A DNA stretch of 64,000 nt from the NCBI RefSeq assembly GCF_021554725.1, contig NZ_JAIZDP010000004.1, positions 62,001 to 126,000 on the forward strand, in the 5' to 3' direction. Under the pieces are notes generated by a model. That model was not told the DNA's origin. It was given only the letters and a program-made list of their open reading frames with translations, and made no database searches. The DNA comes from Sinomonas notoginsengisoli (GTDB taxonomy: Bacteria; Actinomycetota; Actinomycetes; Actinomycetales; Micrococcaceae). This document shows, in pieces, positions 50,247 to 53,960 of the stretch. The position numbers and the translations under genes were made by a program. Position 1 is the first letter of the stretch; the number at the start of each line of letters is the position of its first letter.

Positions 50247-50273
50247 GGAATGATGGTCGGGATCATGCCGTCC
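50247..50273 (+). promoter_or_regulatory. ECF-type promoter of the alkylation-repair operon
   Basis: GGAAT (50247-50251), a 17-bp spacer and CGTCC (50269-50273) match the -35 GGAAC/T and -10 CGTC form recognised by many ECF sigma factors. It lies about 40 bp before the sigma gene, so the operon may be self-activated. An ATGAT-N7-ATCAT inverted repeat overlaps the spacer. Confidence 0.5.
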
Positions 50274-50311
50274 GACCTCACACTTCCGGCCCCTGCAGCG
50301 TCTGCATAGTG

Positions 50312-50818
50312 ATGGACACCAAACAGCCCTTCGAGAAGATCGTCGATCTCCATGGACCGACGGTTCTGCGGGTGTGCCGCGCCGTCGTCGGCCCGCTGGA
50401 CGCCGACGACGTGTGGCAGGAGACCTTCATCTCCGCGCTCCGCGCGTATCCAGACCTGCCCGTCGACGCCAACGTCGAGGCTTGGCTCGTCACGATTGCG
50501 CACCGGCGATCGTTGGACTCAGTCCGCGCGGAAGTCCGCCGGCCCGTTCCCGTTGACAGAGTTCCCGACAGCACATCTCCGCTGGGGAATCCGTCACCGC
50601 CAGCAGACGGCGTCTGGGCTCACGTGGCCCGGCTGCCCGACAAGCAGCGCAGGGTCATCGCGTACCGTTATCTGGCGGATCTCCCCTTCGGGGAGATTGC
50701 CGGGATCGTCGGCGGCACGCCCGCTGCCGCCCGTCGCGCGGCAGCGGACGGGCTCAAGAAGCTTCGTATCCTCGTCACGGCTGACCAGCCGGAAGGAGAC
50801 CGCCATGAACACCCCTGA
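50312..50818 (+). CDS. ECF-family RNA polymerase sigma factor
   Basis: A 168-residue sigma-70-type factor of the extracytoplasmic-function group. Region 2 covers about residues 10-75 (DADDVWQETFISALRAYPDL; EAWLVTIAHRRSLDSVR). Region 4 covers about 105-155 (LPDKQRRVIAYRYLADLPFGEIAGIVGGTPAAARRAAADGLKKL, read in pieces). No anti-sigma gene is adjacent; instead the next gene, overlapping by 14 nt, is ogt, followed by alkB, tag and alkA. It probably directs transcription of this operon when DNA is alkylated. GTG 50309 is an alternative start. Confidence 0.88.
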   Translation: MDTKQPFEKIVDLHGPTVLRVCRAVVGPLDADDVWQETFISALRAYPDLPVDANVEAWLVTIAHRRSLDSVRAEVRRPVPVDRVPDSTSPLGNPSPPADGVWAHVARLPDKQRRVIAYRYLADLPFGEIAGIVGGTPAAARRAAADGLKKLRILVTADQPEGDRHEHP

Positions 50819-51443
50819 GATGCCAGAGCGAGGCCCCGGGGCCGTCGATCTTGCCTTCTCTCCCCATCTGGCCGCCATCGCGCCGGAGGTTCTCGCCAAG
50901 CTCCGCGGCTCGCTGGCCGCGGAAGCGAGCCGTGAGGGCCTGCTTGATGTGGCCTACCGGATCATCGATTCGCCCGTGGGGCGCCTTCTCATTGCGGCGA
51001 CAGAACGGGGACTGGTCCGGGTGGCCTACGAGCGGGAGGGCCTCGACACGGTCCTGCAGGTGCTCTCCGACAGGCTGAGCCCCCGGATCCTCGAGGCACC
51101 CGAGCGGCTGGGGTCCGCCGCCCGTGAGATGGAGGAATATTTCGCCGGCACTCGCACACAGTTCGACCTCCCGCTCGATCTCAGCCTCTCCGGCGGGTTC
51201 CGGCGAACGGTCCTGGCCCATCTCGAGATCATCCCGTTCGGTGCGACGGAGAGCTACACGGAGGTTGCGCGCGCGGTAGGCAACCCCAAGGCCGTCCGGG
51301 CGGTCGGCACCGCCTGCGCCACGAATCCCCTGCCGGTGGTGGTGCCGTGTCACCGTGTGCTCCGCTCCGACGGGAGCCTGGGCGGGTACATCGGAGGCCT
51401 TGAGGCGAAGACCGCGCTCCTCGCTCTCGAGGCGGCAGCGTGA
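50805..51443 (+). CDS. ogt: methylated-DNA-protein cysteine S-methyltransferase with N-terminal extension
   Basis: Ogt takes the methyl group off O6-methylguanine onto its own cysteine. The acceptor is Cys182 in VVVPCHRV, with SLGGYIGGLEAK after it and SYTEVARAVGNPKAVRAVG before it. The protein is 212 residues. About 48 residues (SPHLAAIAPEVLAKLRGSLAAEAS region) precede the usual start of the Ogt fold and have no known function. GGAAGGAG precedes ATG 50805. It overlaps the sigma gene by 14 nt and alkB by 4 nt. Such coupling is unusual for a repair protein and a sigma factor. Confidence 0.92.
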   Translation: MNTPEMPERGPGAVDLAFSPHLAAIAPEVLAKLRGSLAAEASREGLLDVAYRIIDSPVGRLLIAATERGLVRVAYEREGLDTVLQVLSDRLSPRILEAPERLGSAAREMEEYFAGTRTQFDLPLDLSLSGGFRRTVLAHLEIIPFGATESYTEVARAVGNPKAVRAVGTACATNPLPVVVPCHRVLRSDGSLGGYIGGLEAKTALLALEAAA

Positions 51444-52111
51444 ATACGGCACTCTTCGGCGACGAGCTGTTGGAGCGGCCTCGCCGCGAGCTCAGCCCGG
51501 GCGCAGTGCACGTCCCGGGCTGGCTCAGTCTCCCGCAGCAAGCCTGGATTACCGCTCGATTCCACGAGTGGTCCGCGGGACCGGTCCCGCTCCGGGCTGC
51601 GAGCGTGCGTGGCCACGAGATGTCGGTCAGGACCCTTTGCCTGGGCTGGCACTGGCAGCCGTACCGGTACACGCGTGAGGCCACCGACGTCAATGGCGCC
51701 CGAGTTCTGCCACTCCCGGAGTGGCTGGCGCGGGTCGGCCGCCTCGCCGTCGCCGAGGCCTACGGACAGAGCACCGAGGGCGAGGACTACACACCGGACA
51801 CCGCACTTGTGAACTTCTACGACGAGTCGGCGCGGATGGGCATGCACCAGGACAGGGACGAACTCTCGCGGGCACCGGTCGTGTCCCTCTCCGTCGGCGA
51901 CAGCTGCCTGTTCCGCTTCGGCAACACCGGCACCCGGACGAGGCCCTACGAAGACATCACCATCGCGTCCGGAGACCTGTTTGTGTTCGGCGGCCCCGCG
52001 CGGCTCTCGTTCCATGGCGTCATGAAGACCTTTCCGGGAACGGCACCCGCCGCGTGCGGGCTCCCGTCCGGGCGTATTAACATCACACTCCGCGTGACGG
52101 GACTTGCCTGA
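51440..52111 (+). CDS. alkB: AlkB-type alpha-ketoglutarate/Fe(II) dioxygenase
   Basis: AlkB repairs 1-methyladenine and 3-methylcytosine by oxidation. In the 223-residue protein the iron ligands are His136, Asp138 (MHQDRDE) and His192 (SFHGV). The ketoglutarate arginines are Arg212 and Arg218 (GRINITLR). The spacings equal those of E. coli AlkB (131/133/187/204/210) apart from a small shift. NFYDESARMGMH is also conserved. The GTG start overlaps the ogt stop by 4 nt. Confidence 0.92.
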   Translation: MNTALFGDELLERPRRELSPGAVHVPGWLSLPQQAWITARFHEWSAGPVPLRAASVRGHEMSVRTLCLGWHWQPYRYTREATDVNGARVLPLPEWLARVGRLAVAEAYGQSTEGEDYTPDTALVNFYDESARMGMHQDRDELSRAPVVSLSVGDSCLFRFGNTGTRTRPYEDITIASGDLFVFGGPARLSFHGVMKTFPGTAPAACGLPSGRINITLRVTGLA

Positions 52112-52135
52112 AGCTGGGCGGGAAAGGGGAACACC

Positions 52136-52744
52136 ATGAGCGAGGCGGCACTCATCACAGGTGAGGACGGGCTGGCCAGACCCTCGTGGGCCGGCTCGGA
52201 TGCTCTCATGCGCGAGTACTACGACACCGAGTGGGGCATGCCGATCCGGGACGAACAGGGCCTTTACGAGCGCATCTGCCTTGAGGGCTTCCAGGCTGGT
52301 CTGTCGTGGGCGACCATCCTCCGCAAGCGGCCCGCCTTCAGAAACGCCTTCGCCGACTTCGATCCGGACGCCGTGGCGCTGTTCACCGAGGACGATGTCG
52401 AGAGGCTCATGCTCGATCCGGGCATCGTCCGCAACCGGGCGAAGATCAACGCCGCGATCACGAATGCCAAGGCCACCATCGCGCTGCGCCGGGAAGGAGG
52501 GCTCGTAGAGTTCGTGTGGTTCTTCCAGCCGCCCGAGACGCCCGCTCCGGCATCGTTCGCCGAGATCCCTTCGACGTCCCCTGAGTCTGTTGCACTGTCG
52601 AAGGCCCTGCGCAGGAAAGGGTTCGCCTTCGTCGGCCCCACCACAATGTTCGCCCTGATGGAGGCGGTAGGCATCATCGATACCCATCTCGTGGGGAGCC
52701 ATCGGCGCGGAAGCTCGGGCGTATGGCCCCTCACGCAGGTTTAG
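52136..52744 (+). CDS. tag: DNA-3-methyladenine glycosylase I
   Basis: Tag removes 3-methyladenine. The 202-residue protein has YYDTEWGMPIRDEQGLYERICLEGFQAGLSW, with the catalytic Glu of the CLEG block, and RKGFAFVGPTTMFALMEAVG. Compared with E. coli Tag the zinc ligands are altered: the N-terminal Cys is missing, the His of the YHDNEW block is Tyr, and the C-terminal DHVVGC is THLVGSH. The zinc site is probably lost or replaced. GGGAAAGGGG precedes ATG 52136, 24 bp after alkB. Confidence 0.9.
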   Translation: MSEAALITGEDGLARPSWAGSDALMREYYDTEWGMPIRDEQGLYERICLEGFQAGLSWATILRKRPAFRNAFADFDPDAVALFTEDDVERLMLDPGIVRNRAKINAAITNAKATIALRREGGLVEFVWFFQPPETPAPASFAEIPSTSPESVALSKALRRKGFAFVGPTTMFALMEAVGIIDTHLVGSHRRGSSGVWPLTQV

Positions 52745-52767
52745 CGGACAAAGTGGAGAGGGGCTCG

Positions 52768-53688
52768 GTGGAAGGCGATACGGCAGTAATGCGCGGCAGA
52801 GGGGCGAAGTCGCAACCCGAACTGTCTGACGTGCCCGTGCGCCTTCTCGCGGAGGACGGACTTGAGCCACGAGCGATGGTGGCGAGCTTGGCTGCACACA
52901 CCGTTCCCGCCGCCGAACGCACTGACTCCGAGAATGCCACACACCAACGCCTCATCCACACGGTTCAAGGTCCGGTCGCGGTATCCGTTCACCTGGGCGC
53001 TGACGGGGTGGACGTAGTTGGACAGGGCATCTCGGCAACGGACGAGCCGGTCCTCGGCGCAATCCGAGTCTGGCTTGACTTGGATGCGGACCTCGTTCGG
53101 GTCCATTCCATCCTCGCTCGCGACCCACTCCTCAGGCCGCTTGTGCTGGCCCGTCCAGCGCTACGCGTCATCGGCACAACGGACTCGTTCCAGACGGCCG
53201 TCACGACCGTCCTCGGGCAACAGGTTTCGCTCGCCGCTGGACGGACGTTTGCGGGGCGGCTCGTCGCAGCATACGGCGCACCGGGGCCCTCCGGCCTGCG
53301 TCAGTTTCCCGACTCCCAGACTCTTGCAGCAGCTGATGTCGCGCAGATGCGCGCTGCCATTGGGCTGACGGAGTCCCGGGCGCGCACAGTGAAGGCCGTC
53401 GCGGGTGCCTTCTCAGAGCGGGGCCATCCCCGAGGCGGTCAGACGCTGCCCCTCACACGAGACGAACTTCTCGGTCTTCCCGGAGTCGGCCCGTGGACGG
53501 CCGACTACATCGAGGTGCGCACCGGGAATCAGGACGCCTTCACGCCCGGCGACCTCGTGCTCCGACGCGCCCTCGGCGGGATCACCAGCCGGGCCGCGGC
53601 GAATCGTGCCGAGGCTTGGAGACCTTTCAGGGCGTATGCCCTGGCACACTTGTGGACGGCGACCGCCTATGTCTCAGGCGTGGGCTAG
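52768..53688 (+). CDS. alkA: AlkA-type DNA-3-methyladenine glycosylase II
   Basis: AlkA excises many alkylated purines. From GTG 52768 the protein has 306 residues: an N-terminal beta domain, then the helix-hairpin-helix core with FQTAVTTVLGQQVSLAAGRTF, the HhH motif LPGVGPWTADYI and the catalytic Asp in FTPGDLVLRRALG. The start is uncertain. ATG 52723 would overlap tag by 22 nt, and ATG 52789 is also possible; GAGAGGGG before 52768 favours the GTG. It is the last gene of the operon, and no Ada domain is attached. Confidence 0.85.
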   Translation: MEGDTAVMRGRGAKSQPELSDVPVRLLAEDGLEPRAMVASLAAHTVPAAERTDSENATHQRLIHTVQGPVAVSVHLGADGVDVVGQGISATDEPVLGAIRVWLDLDADLVRVHSILARDPLLRPLVLARPALRVIGTTDSFQTAVTTVLGQQVSLAAGRTFAGRLVAAYGAPGPSGLRQFPDSQTLAAADVAQMRAAIGLTESRARTVKAVAGAFSERGHPRGGQTLPLTRDELLGLPGVGPWTADYIEVRTGNQDAFTPGDLVLRRALGGITSRAAANRAEAWRPFRAYALAHLWTATAYVSGVG

Positions 53689-53853: not shown

Positions 53854-53864
53854 AAATGCCTGCT

Positions 53865-53951
53865 GGTGGTGTGTCCGAGCGGCCGAAGGTGCATCACTCG
53901 AAATGATGTTTGGTGTAAAAGCCAACGGGGGTTCAAATCCCTCCACCACCG
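53865..53951 (+). tRNA. tRNA-Ser (anticodon CGA)
   Basis: The acceptor GGTGGTG (53865-53871) pairs with CACCACC (53944-53950), then G. The anticodon arm CATCA-CTCGAAA-TGATG gives CGA. The long variable arm of type II tRNAs is present. CCA is not encoded. Confidence 0.95.
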
Positions 53952-53960
53952 CCCAGCACG

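Follow-up and report, generated by a model that had tools for sequence, protein, structure and literature searches.

The locus studied here raised the question of how an extracytoplasmic function (ECF) sigma factor is controlled when the genes next to it encode DNA-alkylation repair enzymes and no anti-sigma factor. It lies in a stretch of 64,000 nucleotides from Sinomonas notoginsengisoli (RefSeq assembly GCF_021554725.1, contig NZ_JAIZDP010000004.1, positions 62,001 to 126,000 of the forward strand), referred to as the window, and consists of the sigma factor gene followed by ogt, alkB, tag and alkA. Computation revealed a gene order, an overlap between sigma gene and ogt, an N-terminal extension of Ogt and a promoter motif that are conserved across the phylum, and the system was rarely accompanied by Ada. 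We give an even chance to the reading that this is a self-contained alkylation-response module, in which the sigma factor would drive the repair operon to which it belongs, with the long Ogt as a brake on it until the Ogt cysteine is alkylated.

The operon and the conserved sigma-ogt pair

Five consecutive open reading frames were confirmed on the + strand of the window.

50312..50818, + strand: ECF sigma factor, 168 aa, with sigma2 and sigma4 domains (PF04542 and PF08281 above cut-off); an alternative GTG start lies at 50309
50805..51443, + strand: ogt2, O6-alkylguanine-DNA alkyltransferase (AGT) with N-terminal extension, 212 aa, active Cys182 (PF01035, PF02870)
51440..52111, + strand: alkB, 2-oxoglutarate-Fe(II) dioxygenase, 223 aa, GTG start (PF13532, 152 bits)
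52136..52744, + strand: tag, 3-methyladenine DNA glycosylase I, 202 aa (PF03352, 220 bits)
52723..53688, + strand: alkA, 3-methyladenine DNA glycosylase II, 321 aa (PF06029, PF00730)

Down the operon, the junctions were an overlap of 14 bases (sigma/ogt), an overlap of 4 (ogt/alkB), a gap of 24 (alkB/tag) and an overlap of 22 (tag/alkA). The coordinates and the Pfam matches thus agreed with the initial annotation, which had described five genes in a row with overlaps or gaps of at most about 25 bp. All five products exceeded the curated Pfam cut-offs; the stricter equivalog or subfamily cut-offs of NCBIfam were not reached by the alkB, tag and alkA products.

Related loci were gathered by similarity to the sigma factor alone, and 217 loci in Actinomycetota reached 90 bits or more with the sigma profile. 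Conservation of the sigma-ogt order outside this genome had been set beforehand as a point on which the proposal could fail, and ogt was found directly downstream in 215 of the 217. In one of the remaining two (L130) the contig stops 21 bases past the sigma gene, and the other (L060), from a metagenome assembly, offers 1,640 bases in which no ogt was present. The 215 loci encode 206 distinct Ogt proteins; some are duplicates from two collections. Adding later loci brought the count to 316 of 318, duplicates included, and none of five weaker ECF loci had a downstream ogt. The sigma-ogt pair is old and phylum-wide.

The sigma factor was found in 63 of 396 genomes of a phylum sample (E 1e-25) and in 46 of 394 genomes of a class sample (E 1e-40). 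In the family sample it was detected in 105 of 197 genomes at E 1e-10; 101 were counted as this sigma factor, and four weak ones were excluded. A relative occurred in 3 of 72,556 plasmid records.

The two genes were closely joined. In 210 of the 215 loci ogt began before the sigma stop codon had ended, and the overlap was exactly 4 bases in 178 (ATGA in 160, GTGA in 16, TTGA in 2), with overlapping starts preferred by the script where several were possible. No in-frame sigma-Ogt fusion was present in 222 loci.

The initial annotation had also remarked that no anti-sigma gene stands beside the sigma gene, and this held in the relatives. When the 5-kb neighbourhoods of 80 loci were clustered, using frames of at least 70 codons, ogt was found beside 77 of the 80 sigma genes (79 according to the profile search), and repair genes came after it. 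No other conserved neighbour emerged from this single-linkage clustering, the sensitivity of which was limited (the sigma factor itself was grouped in only 59 of the 80 loci, Ogt in 77).

The sigma factor of the window is minimal. It scored 53.2 bits against TIGR02937 (cut-off 42.9), showed no Pfam domain beyond sigma2 and sigma4, and fell below the SigE family TIGR02983 (70.1 bits against a curated cut-off of 141.55). Its nearest named relatives were seven Sinomonas loci with 69-83% identity, and its other matches in its own genome were weak (E 5e-7 or more).

The sole Pfam domains of the window Ogt were PF01035 (104 bits) and PF02870 (46 bits); the zinc-binding domain of Ada (PF02805) was absent, and no anti-sigma domain was recognised by Pfam at E 0.1. 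The protein contains Cys171 and Cys182, the latter within a PCHR motif. The Tag protein (52136-52744) seems to lack most residues of the zinc site of E. coli Tag. Just 3' of alkA is one further feature.

53864-53955: tRNA-Ser (CGA)

The predicted promoter and further motif sites

A de novo dyad search, made with no prior motif, recovered TCAC-N18-GTCT in 82 of 165 non-redundant upstream regions, where about 1 was expected. The upstream consensus was CTCAC-N17-CGTCTaC, and the window contains one such site before the sigma gene.

50277..50303, + strand: predicted autoregulatory promoter, CTCAC (50277-50281), 17-nt spacer, CGTCT (50299-50303), from the dyad search and conservation

At 140 of the 215 loci the motif was present in its strict form, and 200 had the relaxed form YTCACR-N15..17-CGTY, for which shuffled sequences gave about 1.5. 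These searches covered 180 bp before the sigma gene, or 900 bp if an ogt lay upstream, and extended past the start codon. The spacer was 17 in 153 of 154 strict sites. Conservation of this kind strongly suggested that the sigma factor itself recognises CTCAC-N17-CGTCT, and autoregulation is predicted. The usual -35 element of ECF sigma factors is GGAAC, from which CTCAC differs.

In the window, the sigma ATG (50312) follows CGTCT by 8 bases. The same distance was 7-8 bases in 56 of 78 strict sites before sigma genes lacking an upstream ogt, which suggests that mRNAs made from this promoter would be nearly leaderless.

The promoter named in the initial annotation, a GGAAT-N17-CGTCC box (50247..50273, + strand) 30 bp upstream of the predicted one, had to be given up. 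It was not enriched in the window (2 sites at one mismatch, 5.7 expected from shuffles), and its class, GGAA-N15..19-CGTC, was not kept in relatives, being found upstream of 5 of the 215 loci compared with 2.8 in shuffles; two of those five (L001 and L120) were this very locus, and two others (L016 and L106) were one sequence.

The exact motif stood at the sigma operon in 15 of 15 Sinomonas genomes. Six of these genomes had a further exact motif before a LysR-type gene, in the same protein context in all six (Pfam HTH_1, one tested). In the genome of the window this second CTCAC-N17-CGTCT site is at G000:C12:22429-22457 (L235); the other five are L227, L229, L231, L242 and L246. A protein start reading MTPITC occurs five bases past the site and was conserved in five of the six genomes. 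The site may belong to a short leaderless leader, or the LysR-type gene may be a second target of the sigma factor.

In 27 other genomes with the sigma factor, 41 motif sites were counted, compared with 12 for the reversed pattern. Sorted by hand, 23 belonged to the sigma operon or the ogt upstream of it and 3 to other repair genes; the remaining 15 were left unassigned. The three were two PF09859 oxygenase genes (263 and 267 bits), with the site 5 bases before the start codon, and one remote ogt. The 27 sigma-lacking genomes scanned held 19 sites (12 with the pattern reversed), not one of them adjoining the repair genes tested. Because the sites sit mostly at the operon and a few at other repair genes, the regulon of the sigma factor appears to consist largely of this operon and a small number of further repair genes.

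The genes behind ogt2 varied among the 215 loci: alkB in at least 71, tag in at least 27, a PF09859 cluster in at least 23, an alkA cluster in at least 13 and a free-standing zinc domain of Ada type in at least 7; one member of each non-reference downstream cluster was identified with Pfam. The last is a near-bare Ada zinc-binding domain protein, encoded by the first or second gene after ogt2 in L046 (98 aa; PF02805, 34.6 bits) and six other loci; it is perhaps a separate acceptor of phosphotriester methyl groups. In L046 and six other loci, the second or third gene after ogt2 encodes a protein (177 aa in L046) whose match to PF13458 stayed below threshold (25.8 bits, cut-off 31.7).

The Ogt extension, genomes without the sigma factor, and Ada

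Family and PDB matches to the window Ogt started at residues 46-53. About 47 extra N-terminal residues are therefore real, close to the 48 claimed from the window sequence.

50805..50945, + strand: N-terminal extension of Ogt, residues 1-47, from alignment and from AlphaFold2 (AF2) helices at 16-23 and 27-43

The AF2 model of the window Ogt had a predicted local distance difference test (pLDDT) score of 92.7 and a predicted template modelling (pTM) score of 0.84. Of the two extension helices, the first lay in a block of pLDDT 60-84 and the second in one of 84-92; the normal fold after them reached about 95-98.

Among 99 close sequences, Leu33, Leu37 and Asp48 (just after the extension) were invariant, and Ala41 was kept in 97. 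Also invariant were Arg165, Asn174, Cys182, His183, Arg184 and Glu209. In 267 rows that included divergent members, Leu33 was found in 227, Leu37 in 235, Asp48 in 254 and Cys182 in 266 (one gap). The catalytic Cys182, which had been proposed as the methyl-accepting residue, was thus kept across the aligned sequences. The number of residues before Asp48 in these rows had a median of 38 and a minimum of 18, as counted in the alignment. The long Ogt of Mycobacterium sp. SM1 (L059) has GCHR in place of PCHR, with the cysteine retained.

A separate Ogt is encoded just upstream of the sigma gene in 68 of the 215 loci, so repair alone does not require the long Ogt. In an earlier set of 50 such upstream proteins, 37 measured 163-177 aa, and the 28 that could be parsed had a median of 9 residues ahead of the S/T-P-x-G motif.

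In the 197 family genomes, the sigma factor and this type of Ogt (at least 273 bits) went together: all 101 sigma genomes carried the Ogt, and 101 of the 103 genomes with the Ogt had the sigma factor. The two exceptions, G030 and G134, look like cases of sigma loss. The Ogt frame of G030 (L362) opens with MRKPFE, sigma-like by eye, and runs straight into the extension; alkB-like and tag-like frames come after ogt. In G134 the extension is gone. An ECF-like gene (L363:3977-4417), with at most 42.7 bits to the sigma factor, was seen about 1.6 kb from the G134 Ogt on the opposite strand.

A further genome, G143, encodes a second Ogt that lacks the extension and has a CTCAC...CGTCT site to itself; no credible sigma match was found in the 4 kb searched there. 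Four Ogts from sigma-lacking genomes were viewed; three (L363, which is that of G134, L364 and L365) had no extension, and one (L367) could not be read.

Neither the genome of the window nor any of the 10 further genomes of its genus in the family sample gave a match to the Ada zinc domain, in keeping with a possible Ada-independent response. The domain was present in 62 of the 197 family genomes. It co-occurred with the sigma factor in 10 of the 197, compared with 31.8 expected (Fisher 1e-11, uncorrected for phylogeny). One or the other was present in 28 genera, of which 14 had the sigma factor only, 7 had Ada only and 7 had both kinds; in five of the mixed genera (g9, g19, g20, g26 and g28) both occurred within single genomes. 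Ada seldom accompanies the sigma factor.

Proposed control of the sigma factor, and known systems

A self-activating sigma factor has to be restrained. The long Ogt is the best candidate for both brake and sensor because its translation is coupled to that of the sigma factor, because the extension is on the Ogt paired with the sigma factor, and because its cysteine is irreversible and used once. We hold with moderate confidence that the long Ogt regulates the sigma factor. The weakest step is that it would do so as an anti-sigma factor released by alkylation.

In the proposed scheme, the sigma factor would recognise CTCAC-N17-CGTCT and transcribe its own gene together with those of the long Ogt, AlkB, Tag and AlkA, giving a positive feedback loop. 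Unmodified long Ogt, made by coupled translation, would hold the sigma factor through the N-terminal helix, the alkyltransferase body or both. Alkylation of the active cysteine from DNA would lead to a shape change or degradation of Ogt and free the sigma factor; alkylated AGT proteins become unstable. The repair genes would then rise until fresh, unmethylated Ogt again outnumbered the sigma factor. The long Ogt would thus be a suicide anti-sigma factor, whose single irreversible transfer of a methyl group would mend the lesion and at the same time free the ECF sigma factor; Actinomycetota would thereby have a damage-counting alkylation response in place of Ada. This we put forward tentatively, with the balance somewhat against it.

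Several observations weighed against the scheme. AF2 prediction of a natural in-frame sigma-Ogt stretch as a single chain (from a Frankiaceae locus, read through one stop) gave good domains and no confident docking (pTM 0.54), which is weak evidence since the alignment was shallow and unpaired. Over 267 paired rows (effective number of sequences, Neff, 172), covarying pairs between sigma2 and the extension were only modestly enriched (14 in the top 100, 8.6 expected; 25 in the top 200, 17.3 expected), and pairs between sigma4 and the extension were not enriched. The best inter-protein Z was 6.8 and the top-20 mean 4.7, compared with a mean best of 3.6, a highest of 5.9 and a top-20 mean of 2.6 in 20 pair-shuffled controls; shuffling destroys shared ancestry too, so this excess may not mean contact. 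The distance matrices of the sigma factor and Ogt2 correlated at 0.71 (68 loci) and 0.78 (71 loci), only slightly above the 0.60 for sigma and Ogt1 or the 0.75 for sigma and AlkB, so that this measure discriminated little. The extension is short in divergent members (down to 18 residues), and its leucines are not invariant there. Six of the 28 parsable upstream Ogts have 21-47 residues before the fold, which may reflect misassigned starts. L060 has the sigma factor but no ogt, and tight linkage would also result if Ogt were a mere first target gene.

A rival reading has no regulation by a protein partner: the sigma factor would be set by its own synthesis or stability, or by another input, and the long Ogt would be its most conserved target, coupled for dosage. 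The strong candidate autoregulatory promoter, the minimal sigma factor with no extra domain found, and the inconclusive AF2 chain and covariation are all consistent with this. It leaves unexplained why the extension is on the sigma-adjacent Ogt but not on the G143 paralog with the same promoter, and why it was lost in the sigma-less G134. We consider it rather unlikely.

Alternatively, alkylated long Ogt could be a co-activator that contacts the sigma factor, for instance at region 4, and stimulates it instead of freeing it, by analogy with methylated Ada, which contacts region 4 of sigma70. The linkage and the extension speak for this too, and 4 of the top 11 covarying inter-protein pairs joined sigma4 residues 126-132 with Ogt residues 77-81 or 108, although these were not statistically secure. 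The AF2 chain gave it no structural support, and co-activation alone would not explain how a self-activating sigma factor is restrained before damage; we judge it improbable. The least probable of the readings, to which we give very little weight, is that an anti-sigma factor encoded elsewhere restrains the sigma factor, and that the extension serves some other function, for example in DNA binding or stability. ECF sigma factors usually possess an anti-sigma factor, according to the available part of PMC8999054, but the same text places ECF122, the group discussed below, among those without a cognate one. The neighbourhood clustering of the 80 loci also spoke against it, having found only Ogt and repair genes conserved within 5 kb among frames of at least 70 codons; a genome-wide search for anti-sigma genes was not made.

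The sigma-Ogt linkage is already in print as ECF122. As given in the available part of PMC8999054, which cites the 2021 classification, this group has no anti-sigma factor, a 6-O-methylguanine DNA methyltransferase as conserved neighbour and an 'unknown mechanism', with a representative from Cellulomonas sp. Root930. The sigma factors here are alike in having no anti-sigma gene beside them and a methyltransferase gene adjacent (the 215 loci above). We infer that the window sigma factor belongs to ECF122 from this neighbour, not from the group profile. The promoter, the extension, the regulon and the relation to Ada are described here and are not part of that account, as far as the available text goes. 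A literature search found no paper on the promoter, the extension, the Ada relation or the mechanism; the 2021 ECF classification may hold some of these. The conserved promoter, the Ogt extension, the sigma-loss cases with the extension altered or gone, and the rarity with Ada are new handles on ECF122, and through these four points its mechanism is now directly testable.

In structure, the long Ogt shares the alkyltransferase fold of M. tuberculosis OGT and the C-terminal domain of E. coli Ada (PDB 4bhb and 1sfe; 38% identical to the Ogt portion of the L105 model). Sequence matches to the window protein start no earlier than residue 47 and leave the extension uncovered. In organisation, the locus resembles pairs of ECF sigma and anti-sigma factors such as SigH-RshA in being a two-gene unit with the sigma gene first and a candidate autoregulated promoter. 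It differs from them in that the partner is a DNA-repair enzyme with no recognised anti-sigma domain.

The Ada adaptive response likewise has a self-methylating sensor protein and an overlapping set of repair genes. Unlike in that response, a sigma factor would here replace the activator and an O6-type cysteine would do the sensing, in a genome with no PF02805 match. Should Ogt prove to be the regulator, a single irreversible chemical reaction would at once count DNA lesions and switch transcription. This would predict an alkylation regulon for many Actinomycetota, and would amount to a second answer to the problem that Ada solves.

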